A program made the position numbers and the translations under genes. A stretch of 35,601 nucleotides of DNA from contig JAOAFQ010000133.1 of NCBI GenBank assembly GCA_026416195.1, positions 1 to 35,601 on the forward strand, written 5' to 3'. Within the stretch, counting starts at the first letter, position 1. The number at the start of each line of letters is the position of its first letter. The notes under the pieces were generated by a model. It saw only the letters and a program-made list of their open reading frames with translations, was not told the origin of the DNA and made no database searches. Shown piece after piece: positions 5,655-34,108 of this stretch. This DNA is from Candidatus Aminicenantota bacterium. Lineage in GTDB: Bacteria > Acidobacteriota > Aminicenantia > Aminicenantales > CALLJL01.

Positions 5655-7114
5655 TTTTCCTCCTTCCAGTTAAAAATATTTCGTTTAGATTTTACTTTTT
5701 TTTCAATAAAAAAAGCAAGCCAGAAAATTCGCTCCTCTTCAAAGGGAGGGGCCATTATTTGTAGACCTAAGGGTAAACCTTTTTCAGTCAAGGCCATTGG
5801 CAAAGAAATAGCAGGCAGCCCGGCCAGATTGGCGGCAACTGTAAAATAATCAGAAAGATACATTGAAATTGGCTCCACTTTGGCCCCCAAATAAAAAGGA
5901 GGTTCAGGAGTTGTTGGGGTGAGAATAACGTCAACGGAGGCAAAAGTTTTGCGGAACTCCTCCTTGATTAAATAACGAACATGCCTTGCCCGACCATAAT
6001 AAGCTTCATAATAGCCGGCGCTCAGAGCAAAAGTCCCAAGGAGAATCCTTCTTTTTACTTCAGGCCCAAAGCCAACGGTACGAGTTAAGGCATAGAGACT
6101 TTTAAGATTATGTTCTCCAGGATAACGAAAACCATAACGAATGCCGTCATAACGGGCTAGATTAGAGCTGGCTTCAGAGGGAGCAATGAGGTAATAGCAA
6201 GGAAGCGCATAATCCCAAAGTTTTAAATCGAGAGCTTCGCAAGCAAAGCCTTCTCTTTCCAAAAAATTCAATAGGTTGAAATAGGCAGATTTTATTTCCG
6301 GGGTAACTTCTTTAATCTTCTCTTCCGGTAAATAACCTATTTTGAAAACCTTCTTTTCCCCTTTTAAGGCCAGCCTATATGACGGAACAGGAACTGAGGC
6401 CGAGGTAGAATCGTGGGGGTCATAGCCAGCTATAACTTCCATCATTAGGGCAGCGTCCTCAACTGTTCTGGTTAAAGGCCCAATTTGGTCCAGAGAAGAA
6501 GCAAAAGCCACTAAGCCGTAACGAGAAACTCGGCCATAGGTTGGTTTAAGCCCCACTAGGTTACAAAAGGCAGCGGGCTGACGAATTGATCCGCCTGTAT
6601 CTGAGCCCAAAGAAGCGACAGCTTCTCCACTAGCCACCGCAGCCGCTGAGCCACCGCTTGAACCCCCTGGGACTCGGTTTATATCATAAGGATTGCGGGT
6701 CGGGAAAAAAGCTGAATTTTCCGTTGAAGAACCCATCGCAAATTCATCCAGATTTGTTTTGCCAATAATAAGGGCATCTTCAGCCAAAAGACGATTAACT
6801 ACGGTCGCATTGTAAGGTGGAATATAATTTTCCAGGATGCGGGAGGCACAAGTAGTTCGAATGCCGGCAGTTAAAATATTATCTTTAATGGCCAGGGGGG
6901 CCCCGGCTAACTTTCCCTTTTCCTTTTTGTTATCTATCTTTTTAGCCTGTTCCAAGGCCAAATCAGCCGTAACTGTGATGAAGGCTTTAATTTGTGGTTC
7001 TTTTTCATTTATTTTACTTAAATAAGCCTCAACAACTTCTTCAGCTTTAACTTCTCCCCGGTGAATTGATTCAGTCAACTCAATCAAAGTTAATTCAGTT
7101 AAACGGGAATTCAT
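5651..7114 (-). CDS. gatA: Aspartyl/glutamyl-tRNA amidotransferase subunit A
   Basis: This 487-residue amidase-signature protein is full length for GatA. The Ser-cisSer-Lys triad is visible: Lys77 in PLAIKDNI, cis-Ser near 152 in the GGSSGGS motif, and Ser near 176 in SDTGGSIRQPA. GatA releases ammonia from glutamine and channels it to GatB, which amidates misacylated Glu-tRNA(Gln) and/or Asp-tRNA(Asn). It overlaps gatC by 4 bases (ATGA), the usual coupling. gatB is not in this window and must lie elsewhere. The lipoprotein gene follows with a further 4-base overlap. Confidence 0.97.
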   Translation of the reverse strand: MNSRLTELTLIELTESIHRGEVKAEEVVEAYLSKINEKEPQIKAFITVTADLALEQAKKIDNKKEKGKLAGAPLAIKDNILTAGIRTTCASRILENYIPPYNATVVNRLLAEDALIIGKTNLDEFAMGSSTENSAFFPTRNPYDINRVPGGSSGGSAAAVASGEAVASLGSDTGGSIRQPAAFCNLVGLKPTYGRVSRYGLVAFASSLDQIGPLTRTVEDAALMMEVIAGYDPHDSTSASVPVPSYRLALKGEKKVFKIGYLPEEKIKEVTPEIKSAYFNLLNFLEREGFACEALDLKLWDYALPCYYLIAPSEASSNLARYDGIRYGFRYPGEHNLKSLYALTRTVGFGPEVKRRILLGTFALSAGYYEAYYGRARHVRYLIKEEFRKTFASVDVILTPTTPEPPFYLGAKVEPISMYLSDYFTVAANLAGLPAISLPMALTEKGLPLGLQIMAPPFEEERIFWLAFFIEKKVKSKRNIFNWKEEK

Positions 7115-7398
7115 CTTTCTTCGATCACTTTCGGCACTTTAATGAAAAAATCGTCTTTTTCCGGAGCAGCTTGAAGAACAAGGTTTAAAGGAATGGAGCT
7201 TTCAACTTTGTCTGGTCGAAGAGCTAATTTCAATTCCTCTTCGGCCTCCTTAGGAACTACAGCCAGTTCTAATTCTTTTAATTTTCCTACCCAAGCCACA
7301 ATTTCTTCCAACTGCGGTTTAAGCTTTGATTTTTCTTCTGGTTCAAGCAGCAGATGGGCTAACTGACAAAGGTAATCAAGATCAAATTCGTGGCTCAT
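7111..7398 (-). CDS. gatC: Aspartyl/glutamyl-tRNA amidotransferase subunit C
   Basis: This 95-residue protein matches GatC in size and pattern: an N-terminal helix with LCQLAHLLLEPEE, a middle EIVAWVGKLKEL helix and a C-terminal RPDKVE and APEKDDFFIKVPKVIE segment that wraps between GatA and GatB. It stabilises the GatCAB complex. It is first in the gatC-gatA-lipoprotein operon. No Shine-Dalgarno is visible before the ATG (the preceding bases are GGCGGCAC), and a strong promoter lies almost on top of the start codon, suggesting a leaderless message. Confidence 0.93.
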   Translation of the reverse strand: MSHEFDLDYLCQLAHLLLEPEEKSKLKPQLEEIVAWVGKLKELELAVVPKEAEEELKLALRPDKVESSIPLNLVLQAAPEKDDFFIKVPKVIEER

Positions 7399-7754: not shown

Positions 7755-8333
7755 ATGGATATCCACCGCCAAGTTAAATATGAGGAAGAATTAGATAAAA
7801 CCTTCCTCGAAGAAATTAAAGTTTTGTCTGGAGCTGAAGATTTAGATCGTTGCATACAATGTGGCACTTGCAGTTCTTCTTGCCCTATGTCAATTTATAT
7901 GGATTCCCCTCCTAGGAAAATTATTGCTCAGGTTAAAAACGGCTTTAAGGAAGAAGCCCTAAGAAGCTTTACCATCTGGCTTTGTTCCTCCTGCTATACT
8001 TGCCAAGTTCGCTGTCCAGCTAAGATTGAAATCACTGAGGTTATGTACGCTTTAAAAAGAAAGGCCATTGAGGAAAAAGTTTATCCCCAAAAATTCCCAA
8101 TCCCAGTGCTTGATAAAGAAATGACGAATCTAATTAAGAATTATGGCCGTAACTCTGAACTTTGGCTTATTCTCCGGCTCTATTTAAAATCACGTAATCC
8201 TATCGGATTACTAAAAATGGCCCCCCTTGGGCTCAAATTGATGAAAACTGGCCGGATGAGCCTCAAAAGAGAGGCGATTAAAGAAAGAAAGCAGCTGAAA
8301 GATCTATTAAAGTTTCTCAAGGAGGCTACCTAA
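7755..8333 (+). CDS. hdrC: HdrC-like iron-sulfur subunit (locus 1)
   Basis: This 192-residue protein has two complete 4Fe-4S motifs, C33-x2-C36-x2-C39-x3-C43 and C77-x2-C80-x2-C83-x3-C87, followed by a helical C-terminal part, as in HdrC of heterodisulfide-reductase complexes. HdrC carries electrons from the flavoprotein HdrA to HdrB in the cytoplasm. There is no membrane segment, so this is not the membrane-bound HdrE/DsrM type. A strong GGAGG precedes the ATG by 5 bases. It opens the locus 1 operon and its last base is the first base of hdrB, so the two are translationally coupled. A paralogue lies at 18668-19333. Confidence 0.92.
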   Translation: MDIHRQVKYEEELDKTFLEEIKVLSGAEDLDRCIQCGTCSSSCPMSIYMDSPPRKIIAQVKNGFKEEALRSFTIWLCSSCYTCQVRCPAKIEITEVMYALKRKAIEEKVYPQKFPIPVLDKEMTNLIKNYGRNSELWLILRLYLKSRNPIGLLKMAPLGLKLMKTGRMSLKREAIKERKQLKDLLKFLKEAT

Positions 8334-9217
8334 TGAGAGATTATGTTTATTATCCTGGTTGCTCCTTGAAGGGCAATTCTAAACATTATGAGGAATCAAT
8401 TCTTCCTGTTTTTAAAGAACTCGGTTTTCCGTTAGAGGAATTGGAAGATTGGAATTGCTGCGGCGCCACTGCTTATTTTTCGATTGACGATCTCATGGCT
8501 ACGGCCATTTGTGGCCGAAACTTGAGCCTAGCCGAAAAAAGACAACGAAACATCATGGCTCCTTGTGCCGGCTGTTATTTAACCCTAAAAAAGGCAAATA
8601 AAGTCCTTCGAGAGAATTCCGAGAAAGCCAGAAAAATAAATCAAGCCTTGGAAAAGGCGGGCTGTCCCTATCATGGAGGCATCGAAGTTAAACATCCGTT
8701 AGAAGTGCTTATCGAAGATATTGGTCTCGATCTAATCAAAGATAAGGTTAGATATAAGCTAAAAGGACTCAAAGTCGCCTGCTATTATGGCTGTCAGCTT
8801 GTCCGCCCTTTTACCGACTTTGACGATCCTGATTATCCGACTAGCCTTGATCAATTAATGGAAACCATTGGCGCTCAGCCAGTTCCTTATTCAGCCAAAA
8901 CTCGTTGCTGCGGGGGCTCTTTAACTGGGACAATTGAAGAAGTTGGGAAGAGGCTTAATTTCATTCTCCTTAAAGAAGCTAAACGTCGGGGAGCGGATGT
9001 CATCGTTACTCTTTGCCCCCTCTGTCAATTTAATCTCGAAATTTTTCAGGACAAAATGGCCAAAGATTATGGTGAAGATGTCACCATGCCCATCCTCTAT
9101 TTCAGTCAGCTGATGGGTTTGGCCTTTGGTCTGGCTAAAGAGGATTTGGGCTTTAATCGTTCAATTATTGATCTTAAGCCTTTGTGGCCAAAATTAACCA
9201 ATGGAGGCATCGTATGA
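8333..9217 (+). CDS. hdrB: HdrB-like subunit with two CCG domains (locus 1)
   Basis: This 294-residue protein contains two complete cysteine-rich CCG domains: C10, C42-C43, C78-x2-C81, and C154, C192-C193, C228-x2-C231. In methanogen HdrB these motifs bind two non-cubane 4Fe-4S clusters that cleave the CoM-S-S-CoB disulfide. All ligands are kept, so the clusters are probably assembled. Bacteria lack that heterodisulfide, so the true acceptor is unknown (another disulfide, or a relay to a partner enzyme). It is coupled to hdrC (1-base overlap) and to the HdrA N-half (4-base ATGA overlap). Its paralogue is at 19344-20213. Confidence 0.92.
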   Translation: MRDYVYYPGCSLKGNSKHYEESILPVFKELGFPLEELEDWNCCGATAYFSIDDLMATAICGRNLSLAEKRQRNIMAPCAGCYLTLKKANKVLRENSEKARKINQALEKAGCPYHGGIEVKHPLEVLIEDIGLDLIKDKVRYKLKGLKVACYYGCQLVRPFTDFDDPDYPTSLDQLMETIGAQPVPYSAKTRCCGGSLTGTIEEVGKRLNFILLKEAKRRGADVIVTLCPLCQFNLEIFQDKMAKDYGEDVTMPILYFSQLMGLAFGLAKEDLGFNRSIIDLKPLWPKLTNGGIV

Positions 9218-10065
9218 ATCAGAATGGTCAACCCAGAATCGGTGTTTTTATCTGCCATTGTGGAACCAACATTGCAGGCAAAGTAAATGTCAGCGAAGTG
9301 GTCGCGTTTGCGGCCGAGCTCGATAATGTTGTGGTCGCCCGTGAATATAAATTTATGTGCTCCGACCCTGGTCAAGAATTAATTCGACAGTGCATTCGAG
9401 AATATAATCTCAATCGGGTCGTAGTCGCCTCCTGTTCCCCCTTAATGCATGAACCGACTTTCCGAGTCGTTACTTCTGAAGGCGGTCTTAATCCTTTCTT
9501 TTTCCAAATGGCTAATATTCGAGAGCAGGTCTCTTGGGTAACTGAAGACCCGGAAAAAGCGACGAAAAAAGCCAAAGCCATGGTTGCCGCCGCTGTTCGG
9601 CGGGTAGCTTTACATGATCCATTAACTAAGAAGGAAGTACCGGTGAGACCTGAAGTTTTAATTGTCGGCGGGGGTATTGCCGGTATTCATGCAGCCTTAA
9701 CCTATGCTAATTCAGGAAAAAAAGTCTATTTAGTCGAAAAGGATGCCTCTATAGGTGGCCATATGTCCCATTTAGATAAAACCTTTCCTACCCTCGATTG
9801 TGCTGCCTGTATTCTAACGCCGAAAATGAGTGAGGTAGGTAAACATCCCAATATTGTTCTTTTGACTTGGAGTGAAATTGAGGAGGTTTCTGGTTACGTG
9901 GGTAATTTTAAAGTAAAAATAAGAAAAAAAGCTCGTTATGTGGATATCAGTAAATGTAATGGGTGCGGCGCTTGCTGGGAAAATTGTCCGACCACGATTA
10001 CTCCCTCAGAAAGAATTATCCGTAAAGGAAATATCATCATCAAGACCGTCGAAAAAGAAGCTTAA
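9214..10065 (+). CDS. hdrA: N-terminal half of HdrA (split HdrA, locus 1)
   Basis: This 283-residue protein stops where normal HdrA (about 650 residues) is less than half finished. It has the HdrA N-terminal cluster domain (C14, C16 in ICHCG, C49 in MCSDPGQ, C74 in ASCSPLMHE), the FAD-binding VGGGIAGIHAA (151-161), the HdrA signature TFPTLDCAACILTP, and one 4Fe-4S motif C248-x2-C251-x2-C254-x3-C258, then ends 25 residues later. The second Fd cluster, the CC motif, the FAD-closing segment and the C-terminal ferredoxin are all absent here but are found in the gene at 16591-18348. The start is the ATG at 9214 (GGAGG, ATGA overlap with hdrB), not the ATG at 9184. No frameshift: the missing part is not in the adjacent DNA. 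Confidence 0.9.
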   Translation: MNQNGQPRIGVFICHCGTNIAGKVNVSEVVAFAAELDNVVVAREYKFMCSDPGQELIRQCIREYNLNRVVVASCSPLMHEPTFRVVTSEGGLNPFFFQMANIREQVSWVTEDPEKATKKAKAMVAAAVRRVALHDPLTKKEVPVRPEVLIVGGGIAGIHAALTYANSGKKVYLVEKDASIGGHMSHLDKTFPTLDCAACILTPKMSEVGKHPNIVLLTWSEIEEVSGYVGNFKVKIRKKARYVDISKCNGCGACWENCPTTITPSERIIRKGNIIIKTVEKEA

Positions 10066-10066
10066 G

Positions 10067-10414
10067 ATGAAACTAAGGGAGATTAAAGAGCTTCTAGCCG
10101 CCGAAGTTATTTGGGGGGAAAATCATCTCGAGATTGAGATCGACACTGTTTGCGCTTCTGATCTAATGAGTGATGTCTTAGCTTTAGGCAAACCAGGAAT
10201 GCTTTTGATTACTGGATTATCTAATGTTCAAAGTGTCCGTACAGCCGATATTATCGAAGCTAAGGCCATCCTCTATGTTCGAGGGAAAAAGCCAGATCAA
10301 GAAGGCATCTCCCTAGCTAAAAAAAAGGGAATCCCTCTTTTAGCTACAAAATATCTCATGTATCAAGCCTGTGGTCTTCTTTATCAAAAAGGCTTAAAGA
10401 GTGTCCATGATTAG
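10067..10414 (+). CDS. DRTGG-domain protein 1
   Basis: This 115-residue protein looks like a stand-alone DRTGG domain, with VCASDLMSDVLAL, a GMLLITGLSNVQSVRTADI strand-turn-helix and a closing helix containing GIPLLATKYLMYQACGLLY. DRTGG domains are small modules of unclear biochemical function found next to CBS domains, phosphotransacetylases and, as free-standing genes, beside [FeFe]-hydrogenase operons of anaerobes. Here it begins one base after the HdrA half stops and is followed by an RsbT-like ATPase. A related gene lies at 12247-12588, either side of the H-cluster protein. Probably part of the regulatory module; ligand unknown. Confidence 0.75.
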   Translation: MKLREIKELLAAEVIWGENHLEIEIDTVCASDLMSDVLALGKPGMLLITGLSNVQSVRTADIIEAKAILYVRGKKPDQEGISLAKKKGIPLLATKYLMYQACGLLYQKGLKSVHD

Positions 10415-10422
10415 AGCTAAGG

Positions 10423-10887
10423 ATGGCTAAAAACCGAAGTGATGAGAGAGAAAATGGTCTTATTCAACAATTCTCGATTACGGGAGGAGATTTCTATCAT
10501 GCTGGTCATGTCTCGACCCAAATTAAAGAAATTTTAAAAGAATTAGGCATTGATCCAAATATTGTGAGAAGAGCAGCTATTGCCGCCTATGAAGCTGAAA
10601 TGAATGTAGTGATGTACGCGCAAAAGGGCCTCTTCACTCTTGAAGTCACTCCCCAAAAAATTCATTTCTTCGTGGAAGATGAAGGACAAGGAATTCCGGA
10701 TATTGAGCTGGCCATGCAAGAAGGCTACTCAACAGCCACTCCAGAAATGAGAGAGATGGGCTTTGGCGCCGGTATGGGTTTACCTAATATTAAGAAAAAC
10801 TCCGATATTTTTAAGATTACCTCCGAAGTAGGCAAAGGGACTGTCCTCGATATTATAATTTTTATCAATCAGGGGAAAAACCAATGA
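10423..10887 (+). CDS. RsbT/anti-sigma-like HATPase kinase
   Basis: This 154-residue protein is a single GHKL ATPase domain of the RsbW/RsbT/SpoIIAB kind: N-box EAEMNVVMYA, the Mg/ATP loop EDEGQGIPDIELA, and the MGFGAGMGLPNIKKNSD lid region. Such kinases phosphorylate Ser/Thr on partner proteins or bind sigma/anti-sigma factors. There is no dimerisation/His-acceptor domain, so it is not a classical histidine kinase. The ATG sits directly after AAGG with almost no spacer, so translation may depend on coupling to the DRTGG gene 8 bases upstream. It overlaps the H-cluster protein gene by 4 bases, suggesting the two products interact. The target is unknown. Confidence 0.82.
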   Translation: MAKNRSDERENGLIQQFSITGGDFYHAGHVSTQIKEILKELGIDPNIVRRAAIAAYEAEMNVVMYAQKGLFTLEVTPQKIHFFVEDEGQGIPDIELAMQEGYSTATPEMREMGFGAGMGLPNIKKNSDIFKITSEVGKGTVLDIIIFINQGKNQ

Positions 10888-12278
10888 GTCAGTATTACCA
10901 TTCAATCCGTTTTGATGAAACCAAATGTCAGGGTCGAATGCGCTGCCTTCGCGTTTGTCCCACGCAGGCCATTCGCGTTCGTCATGGCAAAGCTAGAATG
11001 ATCGAAGAAAGGTGTATCGATTGTGGTGAATGCATCACCGTATGTCCTAATGGAGCAATCATTCCTCTTACTGACCCTTTTGGCGAGCTGAGTCGCTTCC
11101 GCTATACCATCGCCGTACCCTCGCCCGCTCTCTATGCCCAGTTTGGTCGAGAAATTTTGCCTGATAAAATTTTGGCTGGTCTAAAAAAGCTTGGTTTTGA
11201 TGAGGCTATTGATCTAGCTTACACCTGTGGTGAAGTAAGTTTCGCTATCCAGGAATACCTCCGTAATTATAATGGTCCAAGGCCACTTATTTCTAATGCC
11301 TGTCCGACTATCGTCAGATTAATTCAAGTCAAATATCCTGAATTAATAGCCCACATCATTCCGATTGATACTCCTAGGGAAATTGCGGCTAGGGAGATAA
11401 AAAAGAAAAAAGCTAAGCAGCTTGAAATTCCTGAAAAAGAAATTGGAACCTTTTATCTAACTCCATGCCCCGTCAAAATGATTTCTATCAAACAACCAGC
11501 GGAAAAAGGTCGGTCTCACCTTGATGGCGCCCTTTCTATTGCTGATGTTTATGGACCCTTACTTTCAGCCATGGAAGGTTTGGAAGAAAGCGAAAATTCT
11601 CGCCGAGGTCTCGAAAGTATTTGTATTCTAGGAATAGGTTGGGCTATTGCTGGCGGGATGAGTCGGACTCTTCGCCTTCGCAACTCCTTGGCGGTCGCTG
11701 GACTGGCTGAAATCGTTAAGGTTTTCGATGATATAGAAAAAGGGAAAATAAGAAATATTGATTTTATTGAAGCTTATTCCTGCCCCCATGGTTGCGTGGG
11801 TGGTTCGCTTACGGTCGAAAACACTTATAGCTCCTATAATAAAATTGTTAAATTAATCGAAACCTTAGAATACGAAAAGGTTAAAGCTTGCCCTGATATC
11901 CGAGAAGTTCGACGACGATATGACCAAAAATATTACTTCATTGAAGGAAAACTTGAACCGAGACCACTAGCTCCTCTAGACGAAGATATCAGTCGGGCTA
12001 TTCAGAAGAAAAAACTGAAGGAATCCCTCTATGAACAACTTCCCCAGATTGATTGCGGCGCCTGTGGCTCGCCCTCCTGCCTTACCTTTGCTGAAGATGT
12101 GGTTCAAGGTGAAGCTAACCTGAATGATTGTGTCTTTCTTTGGCCCCAAAAAATAACCCAACTAGCTCAAGAAATAATTGATCTAGTCGAAAAAACCGGC
12201 TTTAAACCTAAAAAAAAGACCAATTTAAAAGAAGGGAAACAAGTTAATGCTTTTACAAGAAATCGTCAGACATCTTAA
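10884..12278 (+). CDS. [FeFe]-hydrogenase-like H-cluster protein, putative sensor
   Basis: Two N-terminal ferredoxin motifs come first: C15, C21, C25 (one usual Cys replaced) and C44-x2-C47-x2-C50-x3-C54. The H-cluster domain follows with SNACPT (C140), TPCPVK (C195) and EAYSCPHGCVGG (C300, C304). All four cysteines that ligate the H-cluster in catalytic enzymes are kept, but the first Cys of the usual TSCCP, which relays protons in catalytic enzymes, is Ala139. That change is reported for sensory (group C, HydS-type) enzymes. A C-terminal FeS motif has C391, C394, C399, C416. No PAS or output domain is present. Placed between an RsbT-like ATPase and DRTGG genes, it probably senses H2 or redox state rather than producing H2. 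Confidence 0.82.
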   Translation: MSQYYHSIRFDETKCQGRMRCLRVCPTQAIRVRHGKARMIEERCIDCGECITVCPNGAIIPLTDPFGELSRFRYTIAVPSPALYAQFGREILPDKILAGLKKLGFDEAIDLAYTCGEVSFAIQEYLRNYNGPRPLISNACPTIVRLIQVKYPELIAHIIPIDTPREIAAREIKKKKAKQLEIPEKEIGTFYLTPCPVKMISIKQPAEKGRSHLDGALSIADVYGPLLSAMEGLEESENSRRGLESICILGIGWAIAGGMSRTLRLRNSLAVAGLAEIVKVFDDIEKGKIRNIDFIEAYSCPHGCVGGSLTVENTYSSYNKIVKLIETLEYEKVKACPDIREVRRRYDQKYYFIEGKLEPRPLAPLDEDISRAIQKKKLKESLYEQLPQIDCGACGSPSCLTFAEDVVQGEANLNDCVFLWPQKITQLAQEIIDLVEKTGFKPKKKTNLKEGKQVNAFTRNRQTS

Positions 12279-12588
12279 CCTAAATATTTTTACAGCTAAC
12301 CTAAATCTTGAAGTTGAAGTGACGGGCGGATATACCTCTGATCTTCTGAGCGATGTCATCGCTAATGCTCAGGAAGGGAATCTCTGGATAACTCTTCAAG
12401 TCCATCCCAATGTGGTAGCTGTAGGCAAACTCAAGGATCTTGCTGGAATTATTTTGGTTAATAATCGTCAACCAGAGGAGGAAACCCGAAGAAAAGCCGA
12501 AGAAGAAAATTTGCCGCTTCTTGGAACCAAAGAAAATGCTTTTATTATTTCTGGAAAACTTTATGCTTTGCTGACCCAAAAGACTTAA
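12247..12588 (+). CDS. DRTGG-domain protein 2
   Basis: This 113-residue protein resembles the DRTGG protein at 10067: GGYTSDLLSDVIANAQEG corresponds to ASDLMSDVLALGKPG, and both end in a Leu-leu-gly/ala-thr-lys segment followed by a hydrophobic helix. It overlaps the end of the H-cluster protein gene by 32 bases in another frame and has AGAAGGGA about 9 bases before its ATG, inside that gene. The tight packing argues for coupled synthesis. The two DRTGG copies flank the H-cluster gene, so they may act as a pair, for example as a heterodimer; that is inference. Confidence 0.72.
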   Translation: MLLQEIVRHLNLNIFTANLNLEVEVTGGYTSDLLSDVIANAQEGNLWITLQVHPNVVAVGKLKDLAGIILVNNRQPEEETRRKAEEENLPLLGTKENAFIISGKLYALLTQKT

Positions 12589-12590
12589 TC

Positions 12591-13322
12591 ATGTTAAAAG
12601 TAGTTAGAGCTGACCTTCACATTCACACCTGCCTTTCTCCTTGTGCTGATCTTTCCATGTCGCCTCGAAGGATCGCCGCTCAAGCTAAGGAAAAATCAAT
12701 TGAGATTATTGGAATAAGTGATCACAATTCAGCTGAAAATGTTCCTGCTTTAATCGAAGCAGCTCGGCCGTATTCCATCAAGGTAATTCCTGGGATCGAA
12801 GTAACCACAAAAGAAGAGGTTCACCTTTTAGCTCTTTTCGCCAATCTCGAATTAGCTATTAACTTCCAAGAAGAAATTTATACCCATTTACCTGGAGAAA
12901 ATGACCCTAATCTTTTTGGTTGGCAGATTGTAGCTAATGAAAAAGATGAAGTCTTGGATTTTAATCCACGATTGCTCCTTGGCGCCACTACTTTAAGCCT
13001 TGAAGAAACAATTGATTTAATTCATGCTGGGGGCGGATTAGTTATCGCTAGTCATATTGACCGAGAAGGATTCAGCCTTCTTGGACAATTAGGCTTTATT
13101 CCTTTCGGTTTGCCTCTTGACGCATTAGAAATTTCGCCTCGACTTAATTTTGAAGAAGCTAAAAAAAGATTTAATTACGACTATCCCTTAGTTACCTTTT
13201 CTGATGCTCATAAATTAGAGGAAATTGGAACAGTCACCACTTCCCTTTTAGTAAAGGACCTTGTCTTTGAGGAGATTGCTTTAGCCATAAAAGGGCAAGC
13301 CGGAAGAAGAATTCTTAATTGA
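12591..13322 (+). CDS. PHP-domain metal-dependent phosphoesterase
   Basis: This 243-residue PHP protein keeps the metal-binding motifs in order: DLHIHTCLSPC (7-17), SDHNS (about 42-46), GIEVTT (about 66-71), ASHIDR (about 152-157) and SDAH (about 202-205). PHP enzymes use two or three metal ions to hydrolyse phosphoesters, for example in histidinol-phosphate phosphatases and 3',5'-nucleotide phosphatases. It begins 2 bases after DRTGG 2 and sits in the regulatory block. PHP genes are known beside hydrogenase operons in anaerobes, where they could dephosphorylate a partner or a small molecule; the substrate here is unknown. Confidence 0.85.
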   Translation: MLKVVRADLHIHTCLSPCADLSMSPRRIAAQAKEKSIEIIGISDHNSAENVPALIEAARPYSIKVIPGIEVTTKEEVHLLALFANLELAINFQEEIYTHLPGENDPNLFGWQIVANEKDEVLDFNPRLLLGATTLSLEETIDLIHAGGGLVIASHIDREGFSLLGQLGFIPFGLPLDALEISPRLNFEEAKKRFNYDYPLVTFSDAHKLEEIGTVTTSLLVKDLVFEEIALAIKGQAGRRILN

Positions 13323-13329
13323 GGTGAGC

Positions 13330-13887
13330 ATGGAAGATCTATCTCTTCACATTCTGGATATTGCTGAAAACTCAGTAGAAGCTGGCGCTACCTGGGTAAA
13401 AATTTCCCTAATCGAGGACCGAAAAACAGATCTTCTTCAGCTCGAAATCGAAGATAATGGTCGAGGGATGTCAGCCGAAGAATGCCGACAGGCGCTTAAT
13501 CCCTTTTATACTACCCGAAAAACCCGGCGTTTTGGTCTTGGCTTACCCTTCCTTCTGGAAGCCTGTCAAGCTGCCGGAGGTCAACTCTCCTTAGAATCAT
13601 CGCCTGGTCAAGGAACAAAGGTAATCGCTACTTTCCGCCTAAGCCACATTGACCTTAAGCCTCTGGGAGATATTCCCTTAACTATCATTGCTTTAATTGC
13701 CGGTCATCCTGAAATTGATTGGCAATATTATCATCGACGAAATGATTGGGAATTTAAATTTGATTCCAAGGAGTTTAAAGAAAATTATCCTGAAATCGCC
13801 ATTAATCATCCTATGGCCTTAAAAGCGATTCGGAATTTTATTAATAAAAATCTATCCCTAATAAGGAGGGAACATGATCGAGGCTAA
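13330..13887 (+). CDS. GHKL ATPase protein (histidine-kinase-like ATPase domain only)
   Basis: This 185-residue protein has an HATPase_c domain at its N-terminus: N-box DIAENSVEAGA, G1 EDNGRGM, the FYTTRKTRRFGLGLPFL lid and SSPGQGTKV. About 65 extra C-terminal residues resemble no domain I know. There is no His-containing dimerisation domain, so it is an ATPase or protein-serine kinase subunit rather than a full histidine kinase. The ATG at 13330 has GAGG 5 bases upstream; a GTG at 13324 is the alternative. It overlaps nuoE by 14 bases. Together with the RsbT-like protein the operon encodes two different GHKL proteins, consistent with a phospho-relay or partner-switch built around the H-cluster protein. 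Confidence 0.8.
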   Translation: MEDLSLHILDIAENSVEAGATWVKISLIEDRKTDLLQLEIEDNGRGMSAEECRQALNPFYTTRKTRRFGLGLPFLLEACQAAGGQLSLESSPGQGTKVIATFRLSHIDLKPLGDIPLTIIALIAGHPEIDWQYYHRRNDWEFKFDSKEFKENYPEIAINHPMALKAIRNFINKNLSLIRREHDRG

Positions 13888-14329
13888 AGTCTCTGATATC
13901 CTCAACAGATATGCTCGCGATGAGAGTTCCCTCATCGCTGTCCTCCAGGACCTCCAGGAGGAATATTCTTACTTGCCCCGGGAAGCCCTGGAACAAATAT
14001 CTAAGGAAATGAATGTCCCTTTGAGTCGGATTCTGAGTCTGGCGACTTTTTTTAAAGCTTTCAGCCTCAAACCCAAGGGAAAACATCCGATCAATGTCTG
14101 TCTGGGAACGGCTTGCCATGTTCGTGGGGCCCAGCTCATCCTCGAAAAATTTGAAAGAGAACTTGGAATTAAAACAGGTGAGACCACTCAAGATTTACTT
14201 TTCAGTCTTGAGGCTGTTCGCTGCCTTGGCTGCTGTGGACTTGCTCCTGTGGTTATGGTTGGCGAAGAGGTCCATGGAAAAGTTACCCAGACTAAAGTGC
14301 CGGCCATAATAAAAAAATATAAAAAATGA
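13874..14329 (+). CDS. nuoE: NuoE/HydC-like thioredoxin-fold 2Fe-2S subunit (locus 1)
   Basis: This 151-residue protein has the helical N-terminus of NuoE (LQEEYSYLPREALEQIS) and the thioredoxin-like 2Fe-2S domain with CLGTACHVRG (C-x4-C) and CLGCCGLAP. NuoE partners NuoF in NADH-oxidising modules of complex I, bifurcating hydrogenases (HydC) and NAD-linked formate dehydrogenases. An AGGAGGGAA precedes the ATG, inside the previous gene. It begins the second electron-transfer block of the operon (nuoE, HndB-like, nuoF, HydA-N/HdrA-C). A paralogue is at 30394-30867. Confidence 0.93.
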   Translation: MIEAKVSDILNRYARDESSLIAVLQDLQEEYSYLPREALEQISKEMNVPLSRILSLATFFKAFSLKPKGKHPINVCLGTACHVRGAQLILEKFERELGIKTGETTQDLLFSLEAVRCLGCCGLAPVVMVGEEVHGKVTQTKVPAIIKKYKK

Positions 14330-14346
14330 TAAAGAGGGAGGCCAGA

Positions 14347-14739
14347 ATGCCAAAATTAACTATAGAAGAACTTGAAAAATTAAGGGAAGAGGCCAGAAAA
14401 ACAACCTTTATCCGTGAACAGGGTCAGTTCAGAGCCAAAATTAATGTGCATATGGGTACATGTGGTCTAGCCGCTGGAGCTCGCCATATTCTTAATGCCT
14501 TTCTACAGGAAATAGAAAAGAGAGGTTTAACCGATGTTTTATTAACCACTTCTGGCTGTGCTGGACTTTGTAGCCGAGAACCAATGGCTACGATCGAAAT
14601 TGCTGGACAAGCCCCGGTTAAATATATCGACTTGACCGAAAAAAAAGTTGAGGAAATTTTTGAAAAGCATATTCAAGGCGGCGAAATTGTCACGGCCTAT
14701 GCTTTAGGCATCGGTAGTGAAAAAACTGATCTCTCTTAA
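14347..14739 (+). CDS. HndB-like thioredoxin-fold 2Fe-2S protein
   Basis: This protein of about 130 residues matches the small HndB-type subunit that sits between NuoE- and NuoF-type genes in NAD(P)-linked hydrogenase operons. It has an N-terminal helix (TIEELEKLREEARK), then a thioredoxin-like ferredoxin with HMGTCGLAAGAR and TTSGCAGLCSREP. One Cys in the first motif and two in the second are seen, so the cluster is not the plain four-Cys kind. The ATG at 14347 follows GGGAGG by 5 bases and is preferred to the ATG at 14326. The nuoEF operon at 30867-28456 lacks this gene, a clear difference between the two NADH modules. Confidence 0.85.
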   Translation: MPKLTIEELEKLREEARKTTFIREQGQFRAKINVHMGTCGLAAGARHILNAFLQEIEKRGLTDVLLTTSGCAGLCSREPMATIEIAGQAPVKYIDLTEKKVEEIFEKHIQGGEIVTAYALGIGSEKTDLS

Positions 14740-14750
14740 GGAGAAAGACA

Positions 14751-16577
14751 ATGGCGGTGGAAAAAGAAAAACTTTATCGGGTTCACTTGATGGTTTGTGC
14801 TGGAACGGGCTGTGTCTCTAACCATGCCTTTGAAATAAAAGAGGCTTTAGAAAAAGAAATTAAACGGCGAGGCCTGGAAAAGGAAGTTAAAGTAGTAACT
14901 ACTGGTTGTAATGGTTTTTGTGAAAGAGGGCCTCTCATGGTGGTTCAGCCCGGAAATATTTTTTATCAGATGTTAACAGTTAAAGACATTCCTTATTTAG
15001 TTGAAGAGCACCTCCTTAAAGGCCGACCAGTTAAAAAACTGATGTATCAGCCACCCGAAGAAAAAACTCCTGTTCCCGTTCTAAGTGAAATTAATTTTTT
15101 TAAAAAACAAGTTCTCGTGGCTTTACGTAATCGCGGTTTAATCGATCCCGAAAAGATTGAAGATTATATTGCCCGAGATGGCTACAAAGCTTTGGTTAAA
15201 GCTTTAACTCAAATGACTCCAGAAGAAATAATCCATGAAGTGACTATTTCCGGTCTCCGCGGGCGGGGTGGAGCTGGATTCCCCACAGGATTGAAATGGC
15301 AACTGGTTCGCAATGCCATTTCGCCTGATAATGAAAAATATCTCGTTTGTAACGGCGATGAGGGCGATCCTGGAGCTTTCATGGATCGGAGTATCCTTGA
15401 AGCCGATCCTCATTCAGTCATTGAGGGTATGTTGATTGGCGCCAAAGCTATTGGCGCCACTCAAGGATTTATTTATGTTCGAAATGAATATCCGTTGGCC
15501 GTGAAAAGAATTCTCATTGCCCTTGATCAAGCCCGATATTACGGACTCCTCGGTCATGACATTTTAGGCACAGGTTTTGATTTCGATATTCGCGTTGTTC
15601 GGGGAGCCGGCGCCTTTGTTTGTGGCGAAGAAACAGCTCTTTTGGCTTCAATTGAAGGTCGGTTGGGCGAACCTAGGCCTCGTCCACCCTATCCAGCTGA
15701 AAAAGGCTTATGGGGTAAGCCGACCTGCATTAATAATGTAGAAACATGGGCTAATATACCAGTCATCATTGACCGCGGGGGAAAATGGTTTGCTTCGATA
15801 GGCACAGCTACGAGCAAGGGGACAAAAGTTTTTTCTATTGTCGGCAAAATTAACAACACCGGATTGGTCGAGGTTCCTATGGGCATTACCCTTAGGGAAA
15901 TAATCTATGATATTGGCGGTGGCATTCCTGGTGGGAAAAAATTTAAAGCGGTTCAAACAGGAGGACCTTCCGGTGGTTGTATTCCGGCTGAATTAATTAA
16001 TCTGCCCATAGATTATGAAAGTTTAACGGCAGCTGGCTCAATGATGGGTTCAGGCGGCATGGTCGTTATGGACGAAGATACTTGCATGGTCGACGTCGCT
16101 CGTTATTTCCTTTCTTTTACCCAAGATGAGAGTTGCGGGAAATGCACTCCTTGCCGAGAGGGAACCAAGGCCATGCTCGATATTTTAACTCGAATAACTG
16201 AAGGAAAGGGAACCGAAGAAGATCTGGGGCTTCTTGAAGAATTAGCTGACACGATTAAAGAGGCCTCCCTCTGCGGGTTAGGGAAGACTGCCCCTAATCC
16301 AGTTTTAACCACCCTTCGCTACTTTCGGGATGAATATATTGCTCATATTCAGGATAAAAAGTGTCCGGCTCATGTTTGCCGTTCCTTAAATGTTTATAAA
16401 ATCGATCCTCAAATTTGCTTTGAAAAAGGACACGGTTGCGATGTTTGTCGGCGCAATTGCGCCACTGACGCCATCATTGGCTCTAAGGGCGAAGCCCATA
16501 AAATCGATCAAACTAAATGTATCAAATGCGGCGTTTGCTTTGATGTCTGCCATTTTGGCGCCGTAAAAGTTGAATAA
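14751..16577 (+). CDS. nuoF: NuoF/HydB-like NADH-binding FMN flavoprotein (locus 1)
   Basis: This 608-residue protein has the HydB layout: an N-terminal thioredoxin-like 2Fe-2S domain (CAGTGC, TTGCNGFCERGP), the NADH/FMN domain (GLRGRGGAGFPTGLKW, NGDEGDPGAFMDRS, RGAGAFVCGEETAL, INNVETWANIP), an SLBB domain, the NuoF 4Fe-4S motif SCGKCTPCREG, and a C-terminal two-cluster ferredoxin (CDVCRRNC and CIKCGVCFDVC). It should oxidise or reduce NAD(H) at FMN and pass electrons through its clusters. Next to it lies a HydA-N/HdrA-C fusion rather than a catalytic hydrogenase, so its partner appears to be Hdr. It follows the HndB-like gene by 11 bases. Confidence 0.95.
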   Translation: MAVEKEKLYRVHLMVCAGTGCVSNHAFEIKEALEKEIKRRGLEKEVKVVTTGCNGFCERGPLMVVQPGNIFYQMLTVKDIPYLVEEHLLKGRPVKKLMYQPPEEKTPVPVLSEINFFKKQVLVALRNRGLIDPEKIEDYIARDGYKALVKALTQMTPEEIIHEVTISGLRGRGGAGFPTGLKWQLVRNAISPDNEKYLVCNGDEGDPGAFMDRSILEADPHSVIEGMLIGAKAIGATQGFIYVRNEYPLAVKRILIALDQARYYGLLGHDILGTGFDFDIRVVRGAGAFVCGEETALLASIEGRLGEPRPRPPYPAEKGLWGKPTCINNVETWANIPVIIDRGGKWFASIGTATSKGTKVFSIVGKINNTGLVEVPMGITLREIIYDIGGGIPGGKKFKAVQTGGPSGGCIPAELINLPIDYESLTAAGSMMGSGGMVVMDEDTCMVDVARYFLSFTQDESCGKCTPCREGTKAMLDILTRITEGKGTEEDLGLLEELADTIKEASLCGLGKTAPNPVLTTLRYFRDEYIAHIQDKKCPAHVCRSLNVYKIDPQICFEKGHGCDVCRRNCATDAIIGSKGEAHKIDQTKCIKCGVCFDVCHFGAVKVE

Positions 16578-16590
16578 GGAGGTAATAGCA

Positions 16591-18348
16591 ATGATTACAG
16601 TTACTATAGATGGCAAAAAAATTCAGGTAGAAGAAGGGACAAATATTCTTAAAGCAGCGGAAAAACTAGATATAAAAATTCCAACTCTTTGCTATCATCC
16701 TCTGATTGAACCTTACGCTGCCTGCCGAGTCTGTCTGGTTGAGGTTACCTTAAGAGGCAAAACGGAATTAGTAACTGCTTGCAATACGAAGGTTCAAGAG
16801 GGGATGGACATTCAAACTACCTCTCCAAGGGCGGTGCAAAGTCGTCGTTTAAATGTGGAAATGCTTTTGGCTCGAGCCCCAGCAGCTGAACCATTGCAAA
16901 GACTAGCCCGAGAAATGGGCCTTGAAAAACCTCGTTTTCCTGTCCGTGATCCGCAGGAAAAATGTATTCTCTGCGGACTTTGTGTTCGAGCCTGTGAAGA
17001 AATAGTCGGCGCTTGCGCCATTAGTTTCGTTGATCGGGGTATAGAGCGCAAAGTTATGCCTCCTTTTGGGGAACCGTCAGTGGCTTGTATTGGCTGCACA
17101 GCTTGTGCTTACTTCTGTCCAACTGGGGCGATAACTTATGAAGATAAATATGGGCGTAAGGTCATTCATGATGAGCTTTATTTAGGGCCCTCAACCGCCA
17201 TTCGGGTGCCTATTCGTCAAGCCGTGCCCATGGTCCCTTTTATTGATGAGAAGGCCTGTATTCATTTCAAGACAGGACGATGTCAGCTGTGTGCCAAAGT
17301 TTGCGACCGCCAAGCTATTAATCATGAAATGGAAGATGAAGTTATCGAAGTTGAGGTTGGCTCAATTATTATGGCTACTGGCTTTAAACCCTTTGATGCC
17401 CGCCGAATTCCAGCATATGGCTACGGTCGATTGTCTAATGTTATCACCGCCCTTGAATTCGAGCATCTAGTCAATGCTTCTGGCCCAACTGGCGGCAAAA
17501 TTCTTCTGACCAATGGTGAAGAACCAAAATCAGTCGGAATTGTCCATTGTGTTGGTTCCAGAGATGAACACTACAATGAATACTGCTCCCGCGTCTGTTG
17601 CATGTATTCCCTCAAATTTGCCCATCTGATTAAAGAAAAAACTAAAGCCGAAATTTATGATTTTTACATTGACCTGCGCTGCTTTGGTAAAGGATATGAA
17701 GAATTTTATCACCGGCTCCTTGAGGAAGGCACTAAATTTATCCGTGGACGCGTTGCCGAAATCACCGATTTAGCTTTAACAAAAGAAGAGGAAGGGAAAT
17801 TAATCATCCGAGTTGAGGATACCTTGCTCGGGGTGGTCCGAAGAATTCCTGTGGACATGGTGATTCTGGCCACAGGCCTTGAACCCAGTGTTGATCATAA
17901 TCAAATCGCTAAAATTTTTAATATCTCTTGCAGCCAAGATATGTTTTTCTTAGAAAGGCATCCTAAATTAGCGCCCGTTTCCTCCTTTTCTGATGGAATC
18001 TTTCTAGCGGGTTGTTGTCAAGGGCCAAAAGACATTCCAGATAGCGTGGCTCAAGCTGGTGCGGCCGCGGCCGAGGCTTTAGCTTTAGCTGACAAAGGTG
18101 TTTTTGCTCTTGAACCAGTGACGGCTGAAATTAACGAAGAACTCTGCTCGGGTTGTCAAATATGCATTGGTCTTTGCCCCTTTAAGGCAATTACCTACGA
18201 TCGAGAAAAAGATATTTCTGTGGTTAATGATGCTCTTTGCAAAGGCTGTGGCACTTGTGTCGCGGCTTGTCCATCAGGGGCTGCTCAACAACGGCATTTC
18301 CGTGACCGACAAATTATGGCTGAGATCGAAGGCCTTTTGATTCTTTAA
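16591..18348 (+). CDS. Fusion of HydA/NuoG-type Fe-S N-terminus with the C-terminal half of HdrA
   Basis: Residues 1-95 form a 2Fe-2S domain (C34, C45, C48, C64) as at the start of HydA and NuoG. The next His/Cys 4Fe-4S site is missing (93-104 reads LARAPAAEPLQR). Two 4Fe-4S motifs follow (C125-C135, C166-C176). From about residue 201 the sequence is HdrA: IRQAVPMVPFIDE, cluster C223/C231/C234/C238, HCVGSRDE and YCSRVCC (C320, C332, C336, C337), FGKGYEEFY, DGIFLAGCCQGPKDIPDS, then a C-terminal two-cluster ferredoxin (C519-C529, C550-C560). No GxGxxG FAD motif is present; that lies in the HdrA half at 9214. The ATG at 16591 has AAGGAGG 8 bases upstream. No H-cluster domain exists. Confidence 0.9.
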   Translation: MITVTIDGKKIQVEEGTNILKAAEKLDIKIPTLCYHPLIEPYAACRVCLVEVTLRGKTELVTACNTKVQEGMDIQTTSPRAVQSRRLNVEMLLARAPAAEPLQRLAREMGLEKPRFPVRDPQEKCILCGLCVRACEEIVGACAISFVDRGIERKVMPPFGEPSVACIGCTACAYFCPTGAITYEDKYGRKVIHDELYLGPSTAIRVPIRQAVPMVPFIDEKACIHFKTGRCQLCAKVCDRQAINHEMEDEVIEVEVGSIIMATGFKPFDARRIPAYGYGRLSNVITALEFEHLVNASGPTGGKILLTNGEEPKSVGIVHCVGSRDEHYNEYCSRVCCMYSLKFAHLIKEKTKAEIYDFYIDLRCFGKGYEEFYHRLLEEGTKFIRGRVAEITDLALTKEEEGKLIIRVEDTLLGVVRRIPVDMVILATGLEPSVDHNQIAKIFNISCSQDMFFLERHPKLAPVSSFSDGIFLAGCCQGPKDIPDSVAQAGAAAAEALALADKGVFALEPVTAEINEELCSGCQICIGLCPFKAITYDREKDISVVNDALCKGCGTCVAACPSGAAQQRHFRDRQIMAEIEGLLIL

Positions 18349-31246: not shown

Positions 31247-31681
31247 ATGGGTAATGGCCATTTTGAGCCCCGTCTAGTGGGCTTCCTCTGTAACTGGTGT
31301 TCTTATACTGGGGCTGACTTAGCTGGAACCGCTCGGATGGTATACGCCCCTAACATTCGAATTATTCGAGTTATGTGTAGTGGTCGAGTCGATCCCCAGT
31401 TTATTTTCAAGGCTTTCCGTGAAGGGGCAGATGGTGTCCTCATCTCAGGCTGCCACCCAGGCGATTGTCATTATCAGGAAGGTAATTACAAAGCCTTAAG
31501 ACGTTACAAGCTCCTCCTCCAAATGCTTGAACAATTAGGCATAGAAAAAGAAAGATGTCGACTCGTTTGGGTTTCTGCCTCAGAGGGAGCTCGTTTTCAG
31601 CAAATTGTTAATGAATTTACTGACCAAATTCGTCGTCTTGGTCCACTTAATTTCAAATTTGATGGAGGTGCTCGTGAGTAA
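31247..31681 (+). CDS. mvhD: MvhD-like 2Fe-2S subunit
   Basis: This 144-residue protein has the MvhD/FlpD cysteine pattern: FLCNWCSY (C15, C18), VMCSGRVD (C44) and GCHPGDCHY (C69, C74). MvhD bridges a donor enzyme such as the MvhAG hydrogenase to HdrA through a 2Fe-2S cluster. The ATG at 31247 lies 5 bases after AAGGAGG and is preferred to the TTG at 31244. It leads mvhD-mvhG-mvhA. In many genomes mvhD sits next to or fused with hdrA; here the nearest HdrA gene is more than 7 kb away and separated by an opposing operon. Confidence 0.93.
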   Translation: MGNGHFEPRLVGFLCNWCSYTGADLAGTARMVYAPNIRIIRVMCSGRVDPQFIFKAFREGADGVLISGCHPGDCHYQEGNYKALRRYKLLLQMLEQLGIEKERCRLVWVSASEGARFQQIVNEFTDQIRRLGPLNFKFDGGARE

Positions 31682-32648
31682 GCCTAAAATTGCTTTCTAT
31701 TGGTGTGCCTCCTGCGGCGGTTGCGAAGAAGCCGTCGTTGACTTGGCAGAAAATATTCTCAAGGTGATCGAAGCAGTGGAGATTGTTTTTTGGCCGGTTG
31801 CTTTAGATTTCAAGAAAAAAGATGTTGAGGCGATGCCTGATGGTTCAATTACCGTAAGTTTCATCAATGGTTCAGTTAGACTGTCCGAACAGGAAGAAAT
31901 GGTTCATTTGCTTCGCCAAAAATCACAGTTGGTAGTCGCTTTTGGAAGCTGTGCCCATCTTGGAGGAATTCCAGGCCTTGCTAACTTCTGGAATAAGGAA
32001 ACCATTTTCCATCGCGTCTATTTTACGACTCCCTCAACAGTTAATCCTGACAGGGTTGTTCCTCAGGAAAAGGTGATAATTGAAAACAAAGAATTGACCT
32101 TACCAGCCTTCTACGACACAGTTAGAGCCCTCGATCAGGTTATCGAAGTTGACTACTACCTTCCTGGATGTGCTCCTCCTCCCAATTTGGTTATGAAGGC
32201 GGTTTTTGCTATTTTGGAAGGGAACCTTCCTCCAAAAGGATCAGTTCTAGCTCCCAATAAATCCCTCTGCGACGATTGTGATCGCAATAAAACCAAACCT
32301 GAAAAATTGACGATCAAAGAATTTAAAAGGCCCTGGGAAGTTTGGCTTGATCCAGAAAAATGCTTTCTGGCTCAAGGGGTCATCTGTCTGGGACCAGCCT
32401 CAAGAACTGGTTGTGAAGAAAGATGTATTTCCGCCAATATGCCTTGTCGAGGCTGCTTCGGTCCAACTGACCAAGTTTATGACCAGGGAGCCAAATTTTT
32501 ATCCGCCTTGGCCTCCCTTATCGATGCTAAGGACGAAAAAGAGATAGAAAAAATTGTTCAAACCATCGTTGATCCGGCCGGAACTTTTTATCAGTTTAGT
32601 CTTCCTAAATCTATTCTCGGTCGGAGAAAACTGGAGGCAATAAAATGA
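31674..32648 (+). CDS. mvhG: MvhG-like [NiFe]-hydrogenase small subunit
   Basis: This protein of about 324 residues begins with YWCASCGGCEE (C11, C14, C17), the small-subunit proximal-cluster motif, followed by AFGSCAHLGGIPG and PGCAPPPN, and later CFLAQGVICLGPASRTGCEERC and MPCRGCFGPT for the outer clusters. There is no Tat signal, so it is cytoplasmic, as in group 3 enzymes. The GTG at 31674 lies 5 bases after GGAGG and overlaps mvhD by 8 bases; the in-frame ATG at 31662 carries that GGAGG inside its own coding sequence. It overlaps mvhA by 4 bases. Confidence 0.92.
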   Translation: MSKPKIAFYWCASCGGCEEAVVDLAENILKVIEAVEIVFWPVALDFKKKDVEAMPDGSITVSFINGSVRLSEQEEMVHLLRQKSQLVVAFGSCAHLGGIPGLANFWNKETIFHRVYFTTPSTVNPDRVVPQEKVIIENKELTLPAFYDTVRALDQVIEVDYYLPGCAPPPNLVMKAVFAILEGNLPPKGSVLAPNKSLCDDCDRNKTKPEKLTIKEFKRPWEVWLDPEKCFLAQGVICLGPASRTGCEERCISANMPCRGCFGPTDQVYDQGAKFLSALASLIDAKDEKEIEKIVQTIVDPAGTFYQFSLPKSILGRRKLEAIK

Positions 32649-34108
32649 GTCAGAGAATAACTATTGATCCTATAACTCGATTAGAAGGTCATGGTAAAAT
32701 CGAAATTTTCTTAAACGAGGCTGGCGAGGTAGAAAGGGCCTTTCTTCAAGTTCCTGAGTTAAGAGGGTTTGAGCAGTTTGCCGTAGGTCGGCCGGTGGAG
32801 GAACTGCCTAGGATTACCCCCCGAATTTGTGGCGTCTGTCCCACGGCCCATCACATGGCTTCAACGAAATGTGTCGACGCCGTTTTTCATGTCGAGCCCC
32901 CTCCCACCGCCCGCAAGATCAGAGAACTAATTTATAATGCTTTTATGATGGAGGACCATACCCTTCATTTCTTTTTTCTCGGAGGACCAGATTTTGTTGT
33001 TGGCCCTCAAGCTCCAGCGGCTGAAAGAAATATTCTTGGGGTAATTGGTAAAGTTGGCCTAGAAATTGGAAGCCAAGTAATAAAAATTAGGCGAGAGGTC
33101 AGAGATATAATCAATTATCTTGGCGGAAAGGTCATTCATCCTGTCTGTGGCCTGCCTGGAGGCGTCTCCAAGGGATTAGATGAGGCTCATCGGGTTCAAT
33201 TCCTTGAAGTTGCTCGTCACGCCGTCGAATTTGCCAAGTTTGCTCTGAAAATCTTCGATGAGGTGGTTCTAAAAAATAAAGAATATGTCGATCTTGTTAT
33301 GAGTGAAGCCTATAAATTAACTACCTATTACATGGGACTCGTAGATGAAAACAACCGAGTTAATTTTTATGATGGAATGGTTCGAATAGTCGACCCAGAA
33401 GGTAAAGAATTCGCTAAATTTAAACCCGCCGATTATCTTAGCCATATTGCTGAACACGTCGAGCCTTGGACTTATATCAAGTTTCCTTATCTAAAAAAAT
33501 TGGGTTGGCGGGGTTTTGTTGAGGGTAAAGACACAAGTATTTACCGCGTAGCCCCTTTAGCTCGATTGAATGCAGCTGATGGCATGGCCACTCCTTTGGC
33601 TCAAGAAGAATATGACCGAATGTATCAAGTCTTAGGGGGAAAACCAGCTCACCATACTTTAGCTTTTCATTGGGCTCGACTGATTGAGGCTTTGCAAGCC
33701 GCTGAAACTATGGTCGCCTTGCTTGAAGATAAAGAAATTACCAGCCCCGACATTCGCCGTATTCCTACAGAAACCCCAACGGAGGGCGTAGGAATAGTTG
33801 AAGCGCCAAGAGGAACTCTTATTCATCATTATAAAACAGATGAAAAAGGCTTAGTGACTGAAGCTAACCTAATTGTAGCGACAATGAATAATTCAGCAGC
33901 GATAGCTATGTCCATTGAAAAAGCAGCCAAAGCTTTTATTAAGGGCGGAAAAATCTCTGAGGGTCTACTTAATTTAGCGGAAATGGCCTTCCGTCCATAC
34001 GATCCCTGTCATGCCTGTGGAACTCACGCTCTACCCGGAGATATGCCTCTAATTATCAATATTTATAACCACCGTGGACAATTAACTGACCAACTTAAAA
34101 GAGACTAA
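32645..34108 (+). CDS. mvhA: MvhA-like [NiFe]-hydrogenase large subunit
   Basis: This 487-residue protein has both NiFe ligand motifs, RICGVCPTAHH (C62, C65) and DPCHACGTH (C455, C458), with RLEGHGK near the N-terminus. About 26 residues follow His461, the expected C-terminal peptide removed by a maturation endopeptidase. The sequence type and the MvhD/MvhG neighbours indicate the group 3c, Hdr-linked, F420-independent class. It should take up H2 in the cytoplasm and feed electrons via MvhD to an HdrA-type flavin. No hyp maturation genes are in the window. Confidence 0.94.
   Translation: MSQRITIDPITRLEGHGKIEIFLNEAGEVERAFLQVPELRGFEQFAVGRPVEELPRITPRICGVCPTAHHMASTKCVDAVFHVEPPPTARKIRELIYNAFMMEDHTLHFFFLGGPDFVVGPQAPAAERNILGVIGKVGLEIGSQVIKIRREVRDIINYLGGKVIHPVCGLPGGVSKGLDEAHRVQFLEVARHAVEFAKFALKIFDEVVLKNKEYVDLVMSEAYKLTTYYMGLVDENNRVNFYDGMVRIVDPEGKEFAKFKPADYLSHIAEHVEPWTYIKFPYLKKLGWRGFVEGKDTSIYRVAPLARLNAADGMATPLAQEEYDRMYQVLGGKPAHHTLAFHWARLIEALQAAETMVALLEDKEITSPDIRRIPTETPTEGVGIVEAPRGTLIHHYKTDEKGLVTEANLIVATMNNSAAIAMSIEKAAKAFIKGGKISEGLLNLAEMAFRPYDPCHACGTHALPGDMPLIINIYNHRGQLTDQLKRD

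Follow-up and report, generated by a model that had tools for sequence, protein, structure and literature searches.

The 464-residue protein encoded on the forward strand (+) at positions 10884-12278 is an H-domain protein that descends from the lineage of the group D (M2e) putative H2 sensors, as seen from its open reading frame, Pfam matches, tree position, AlphaFold2 model and structural superposition. We propose that this protein probably acts as a cubane-only redox sensor for the Hdr-Nuo complex encoded around it in the window (the whole stretch of 35,601 nucleotides that was analysed) and that it does so without a finished H-cluster. Profile searches of its own genome and of related genomes found no H-cluster builders, and thus the protein probably senses electron balance rather than H2 gas.

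The reading frame starts with ATG and is open throughout. The protein consists of an N-terminal region with two Fer4 motifs, an Fe_hyd_lg_C domain (residues 75-307, E 6.3e-27) and an FeS domain (PF04060, residues 386-418). The four Cys ligands of the [4Fe-4S]H cubane are present as C140, C195, C300 and C304, as the preliminary description had claimed, and are invariant in both a 20-row and a 40-row alignment of homologues. The equivalent of the TSCCP motif reads S-N-A-C-P, and its Ala139 occupies the position of the proton-relay Cys (CpI C299), next to the cubane ligand Cys140 (CpI C300; 11298-11303), so that the replacement described earlier is borne out. In the segment T193-P-C195-P-V-K198 (11460-11477), CpI M353 is replaced by Thr, and CpI C355 and K358 are kept. 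A further segment (11769-11795) contains E296 (TamHydS E289), Y298 (CpI M497) and the ligands C300 and C304 (CpI C499 and C503). The first ferredoxin motif is indeed one Cys short, reading C15-x2-R18-x2-C21-x3-C25 with Arg18 (codon at 10935-10937) in place of the second Cys; the protein, like many of its relatives, therefore has one intact N-terminal [4Fe-4S] motif fewer than the two of group D. The C-terminal iron-sulphur motif that had also been noted is C391-x2-C394-x4-C399-x16-C416 in the translation (12054-12131) and lies within the Pfam FeS match. The AlphaFold2 model is confident (mean pLDDT 91.4, pTM 0.87), and its first 360 or so residues align with [FeFe] hydrogenases, including CbA5H (8zqd_A; Z 33.7, rmsd 2.7, 343 residues aligned), and superposes on apo as well as holo hydrogenases.

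A homologue is found in 27 of 40 genomes of the same order, its own included. The motif pattern is not due to chance, because the homologue shares at least 65% identity in 16 of the 40 genomes (own included) and approximately 40-45% in 11 more. A frameshift, a pseudogene or a chance motif is ruled out by the open frame and its retention by homologues across the order. Most of the close relatives that bear a name are MAGs of Candidatus Aminicenantes, and distant homologues come from Deltaproteobacteria, Ignavibacteria, Bacteroidetes, WOR-3, Planctomycetes and Clostridia. One contig of Aminicenantes carries two different group D genes (L075:3305-4585 and 5993-7321), each with cassette genes. A protein from a record named Clostridiales bacterium (L038, JARYMI010000001.1) groups with those of Aminicenantes, and the name of that record may be wrong.

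Where does the protein belong among hydrogenase-like proteins? Our tree comprises 118 rows (21 catalytic-type, a single long row on its own, 8 group C-like and 88 group D-type), for which group labels were assigned from architecture and motifs and which do not include the TamHydS sequence itself. The 88 group D-type rows form one branch (SH-aLRT 100), and the window protein lies inside a mostly non-clostridial sub-branch of 66 rows (SH-aLRT 100) that leaves 22 clostridial-type rows outside. The protein thus groups with the group D-type rows, apart from the A/B-type and C-type rows, in agreement with the earlier expectation that it would stand away from the catalytic enzymes; a catalytic group A placement is ruled out by the same tree. 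Land et al. describe group D/M2e proteins as an H-domain followed by a C-terminal Cx2Cx4Cx16C motif without a PAS domain, with Cys299 lost and Met353 replaced by Ser or Thr (PMC8163306). The window protein likewise has the H-domain, then Cx2Cx4Cx16C, no PAS domain, and A139 and T193 at the two positions. The preliminary description had remarked that sensory enzymes usually carry a PAS domain, which holds for group C but not for group D, whose norm is PAS-free in the account of Land et al. (PMC8163306). Because a missing PAS domain combined with a C-terminal FeS site is a hallmark of group D in that account, the absent PAS domain is already explained. Several of the 8 group C-like rows carry a histidine kinase; the window protein has zero Pfam matches to a PAS or histidine kinase output domain, and a group C protein that had lost its PAS domain is ruled out by the tree and the domain order. 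Group C (M2f) HydS proteins, such as Thermotoga maritima HydS, are described as having N-terminal clusters, an H-domain, a C-terminal FeS site and the loss of Cys299 (PMC8163306), all of which the window protein shares, but the window protein has no PAS or histidine kinase domain and stands on a separate branch of the tree. The closest described counterpart in group D/M2e is TamHydS from Thermoanaerobacter mathranii, which is reported to have the same domain order, Cx2Cx4Cx16C motif and PAS absence, the same Cys299-to-Ala and Met353-to-Ser/Thr changes and an adjacent gene for a histidine kinase-like ATPase (PMC8163306). However, the TamHydS gene precedes that of a bifurcating group A hydrogenase, whereas the window protein adjoins Hdr-Nuo, has Arg in place of one N-terminal ligand and comes from a genome without HydEFG.

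The gene resides in a conserved cassette, all on the forward strand (+). Upstream lie genes for a DRTGG-domain protein (9938-10414), found upstream in 48/50 loci of the 66-row branch and 20/22 clostridial-type loci, and for a SpoIIAB/RsbW-like HATPase (10423-10887), the likely first signalling partner. Downstream follow genes for a second DRTGG-domain protein (12247-12588), a PHP-domain phosphoesterase (12591-13322) and a second HATPase (13324-13887). Among loci with enough flank, the upstream HATPase is present in 48/50 branch loci and 22/22 clostridial-type loci, so that the likely output proteins are separate genes, in keeping with the suggestion of a sensor-like protein with separate partners. 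The downstream DRTGG, PHP and HATPase genes each occur in 32/43 branch loci, and they occur in 17/18, 17/18 and 11/18 clostridial-type loci, respectively.

These constant neighbours bear on a reading in which the protein resembles eukaryotic Nar1 (CIAO3/IOP1) and holds another cluster in the [2Fe] cavity, or handles clusters for neighbouring proteins, instead of sensing. Nar1 is described as a hydrogenase-like protein without [2Fe]H, and a [2Fe-2S] cluster has been proposed in that cavity (PMC12621388); by analogy with this description, such a protein can serve without [2Fe]H. The operon also encodes many Fe-S proteins. However, Nar1 is a cluster-assembly protein of eukaryotes and has no signalling cassette, and the HATPase, DRTGG and PHP proteins of the window resemble signalling proteins rather than cluster-assembly factors. 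We therefore regard a Nar1-like role as unlikely.

HydE, HydF and HydG were each over the cut-off in 0/40 genomes of the order, the own genome included, in profile searches in which the Thermotoga maritima positive control exceeded each cut-off. The preliminary description had set beforehand the absence of hydEFG as refuting its reading, and this absence is found in 40/40 genomes; a complete H-cluster and H2 sensing are accordingly not supported. Incomplete assembly is an unlikely cause, given that 28 of the 40 genomes are at least 90% complete and 0/28 have the maturases. The only PF02906 protein in the own genome (G000) is the product of 10884-12278. In a phylum sample of 297 genomes, 68 contain PF02906 and 42 have HydF over the cut-off. 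A HydF threshold of E 1e-60 or better gives 43 positive genomes: 42/47 of those with a PF02906 protein of catalytic strength, 0/18 of those with the weak class only, 0/3 of those with an in-between protein, and one without a PF02906 match. Among the 50 of 80 named-locus genomes that were examined, HydF is found in 16 (15 of these 16 also with HydG), a catalytic-strength enzyme in 16, and neither in 31. Three of the 16 genomes with a catalytic-strength enzyme have no HydF and three HydF-positive genomes have no such enzyme, and therefore gaps in MAGs do occur; Fisher values on the genome and locus counts of this study ignore relatedness. The large branch retains its cubane site intact, yet most of its tested genomes have no known way to make an H-cluster. 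Published group D work assumes HydEFG dependence (PMC8163306; PMC10407848), and our literature search, with subscription papers mostly outside its reach, brought up no study of group D proteins from genomes without HydEFG.

The residues around the cavity give a more divided answer. In the 66-row branch, the cubane ligands C300, C355 and C503 are kept in 66/66 rows and C499 in 64/66 (two His). K198 is kept in 62/66 rows and corresponds to CpI K358, which binds a cyanide ligand of the [2Fe] site; T193-type residues and E296 are mostly kept. Because these residues are largely retained, the pocket is not simply degraded, which counts against the cubane-only reading. By contrast, ferredoxin motif 1 has its second Cys in 17/66 branch rows versus 22/22 clostridial-type rows (absent in 49/66 versus 0/22), E252 is kept in 12/66 versus 21/22 and D265 in 1/66 versus 21/22. 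The proton route proposed for TamHydS consists of E252, E289, S249 and D265 (PMC10407848). The window protein keeps one of these four, with M259 for E252 and A256 for S249 (A256-G-G-M259, 11649-11660), A272 for D265 (11697-11699) and E296 for E289, whereas TamHydS has E252, S249 and D265. The reported TamHydS variants E252V and E252D have less than 0.01% of H2 oxidation left (PMC10407848). In a further report, attempts to equip the TamHydS variant C20A with the [2Fe] subsite failed, and the C-terminal cluster of TamHydS was not reduced by H2 (PMC13104023). By its position, C20 is another ligand of the cluster whose Cys is Arg18 in the window protein.

The residue differences lie deep in the tree, at the level of clades, and amount to 3 to 5 changes. 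In a tree-aware pairing, six independent pairs that differ in HydF showed no association with them. Furthermore, 8 rows of the 66-row branch come from HydF-positive genomes, and the HydF-positive label is scattered over the tree (15 changes versus 17.0 in shuffles). With differences so few and deep, the six pairs unlinked and the 8 HydF-positive rows, the residue pattern is a description of a clade and not an independent proof. The tree fits either direction of change: E252 and D265 may have been lost in the 66-row branch or gained in Clostridia.

If the protein were a genuine H2 sensor whose H-cluster is complete, either the assemblies would have missed HydEFG or an unknown pathway would mature the cluster. 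Such a sensor would account for the retention of the four ligands, K198, T193 and E296 and for the superposition of the fold on apo and holo hydrogenases, and TamHydS is reported to take up a synthetic [2Fe] subsite (PMC8163306). However, HydE, HydF and HydG are absent from all 40 genomes of the order, although the same kind of search detects HydF elsewhere in the phylum, and E252 and D265 are missing from the window protein. This alternative consequently appears quite improbable.

The cassette is embedded in genes of the Hdr-Nuo complex. Genes for HdrC and HdrB and for the N-terminal portion of HdrA lie at 7755-10065 (+); those for NuoE, a thioredoxin-like ferredoxin and NuoF, which constitute the NADH module, at 13874-16577 (+); and the gene at 16570-18348 (+) encodes a fusion in which a 2Fe-2S/4Fe-4S N-terminus precedes the C-terminal portion of HdrA. 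HdrA is thus split into two segments (9184-10065 and 16570-18348) that flank the cassette. The arrangement with the cassette and NuoE/Trx/NuoF between the two HdrA segments is also seen in further phyla, for example at L056, L060 and L064. Among long-flank loci of the branch, HdrA is found in 24/29, NuoF in 25/29 and catalytic HydA in 0/29, and among long-flank clostridial-type loci, HdrA is found in 0/17, NuoF in 11/17 and HydA in 8/17; the NADH module is the neighbour common to both. The cassette is not tied to one enzyme, given that it adjoins HydA in Clostridia and that NuoF, HdrA and HydA are all absent from the fetched flanks in 3/29 branch and 6/17 clostridial-type loci; a purely structural or electron-transfer subunit of Hdr-Nuo without a regulatory role is accordingly very unlikely, even though the protein shares its operon with NuoEF and the split HdrA and has four predicted cluster sites. 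Further along the window, [NiFe] hydrogenase genes (Oxidored_q6, NiFeSe_Hases; 31605-34108) follow Hdr and formate dehydrogenase-like genes, and the H2 chemistry of this genome, if any, may reside there.

How could a cubane-only protein report on the Hdr-Nuo complex? The four conserved cysteines would bind the [4Fe-4S]H cubane and nothing else, which is also the state of an apo-hydrogenase. The cubane would form a relay with the altered N-terminal clusters, one of which would be a three-cysteine site, and with the C-terminal [4Fe-4S] cluster. Electrons would enter this relay most likely from ferredoxin or from the neighbouring NuoEF-Hdr complex. A putative redox-driven shape change would be relayed to the HATPase whose gene immediately precedes that of the sensor, and the signal would proceed via the DRTGG protein, the PHP protein and the second HATPase to control the bifurcating Hdr-Nuo complex of the same operon. 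In Thermoanaerobacterium, deletion of the PAS-containing homologue hfsB is reported to shift fermentation (PMC11837493), and a regulatory role of hydrogenase-like sensors is therefore genetically supported, in a different group.

It is possible, although we would not presume it, that a whole cross-phylum branch of the 'putative H2-sensing [FeFe] hydrogenases' lacks an H-cluster entirely and senses the ferredoxin/NADH balance with the cubane alone or with another cofactor in the empty diiron cavity. If so, the widest common role of group D cassettes would be the control of electron-bifurcating complexes of the NuoEF type, and H2 sensing would be a special clostridial use of the cassette. Surveys that score such genes as H2 sensors would then be wrong for many anaerobic phyla. 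Such a branch would also raise in bacteria the question that Nar1 poses in eukaryotes, namely, the role of the [FeFe]-hydrogenase fold without the diiron site, and the window protein would offer a natural apo-form, amenable to expression, with which to address it.

Several other rows of the tree deviate at the cofactor site. Sub-branches of group D (L079, L094, L095 and L115) have Met or Leu at CpI K358, and the two rows with His at C499 are L070 and L071. Three group C-like proteins that contain a histidine kinase domain (L116:676-2772, L118:749-2848 and L119:839-2899) come from genomes without HydF (G018, G009 and G065) and read R at the CpI K358 site, at which the other group C-like rows read K. 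TSCSP, the usual motif of bifurcating HydA, is present in 16/21 catalytic-type rows (including L120, L125 and L096:14907-16655) and places Ser at the cubane ligand C300.
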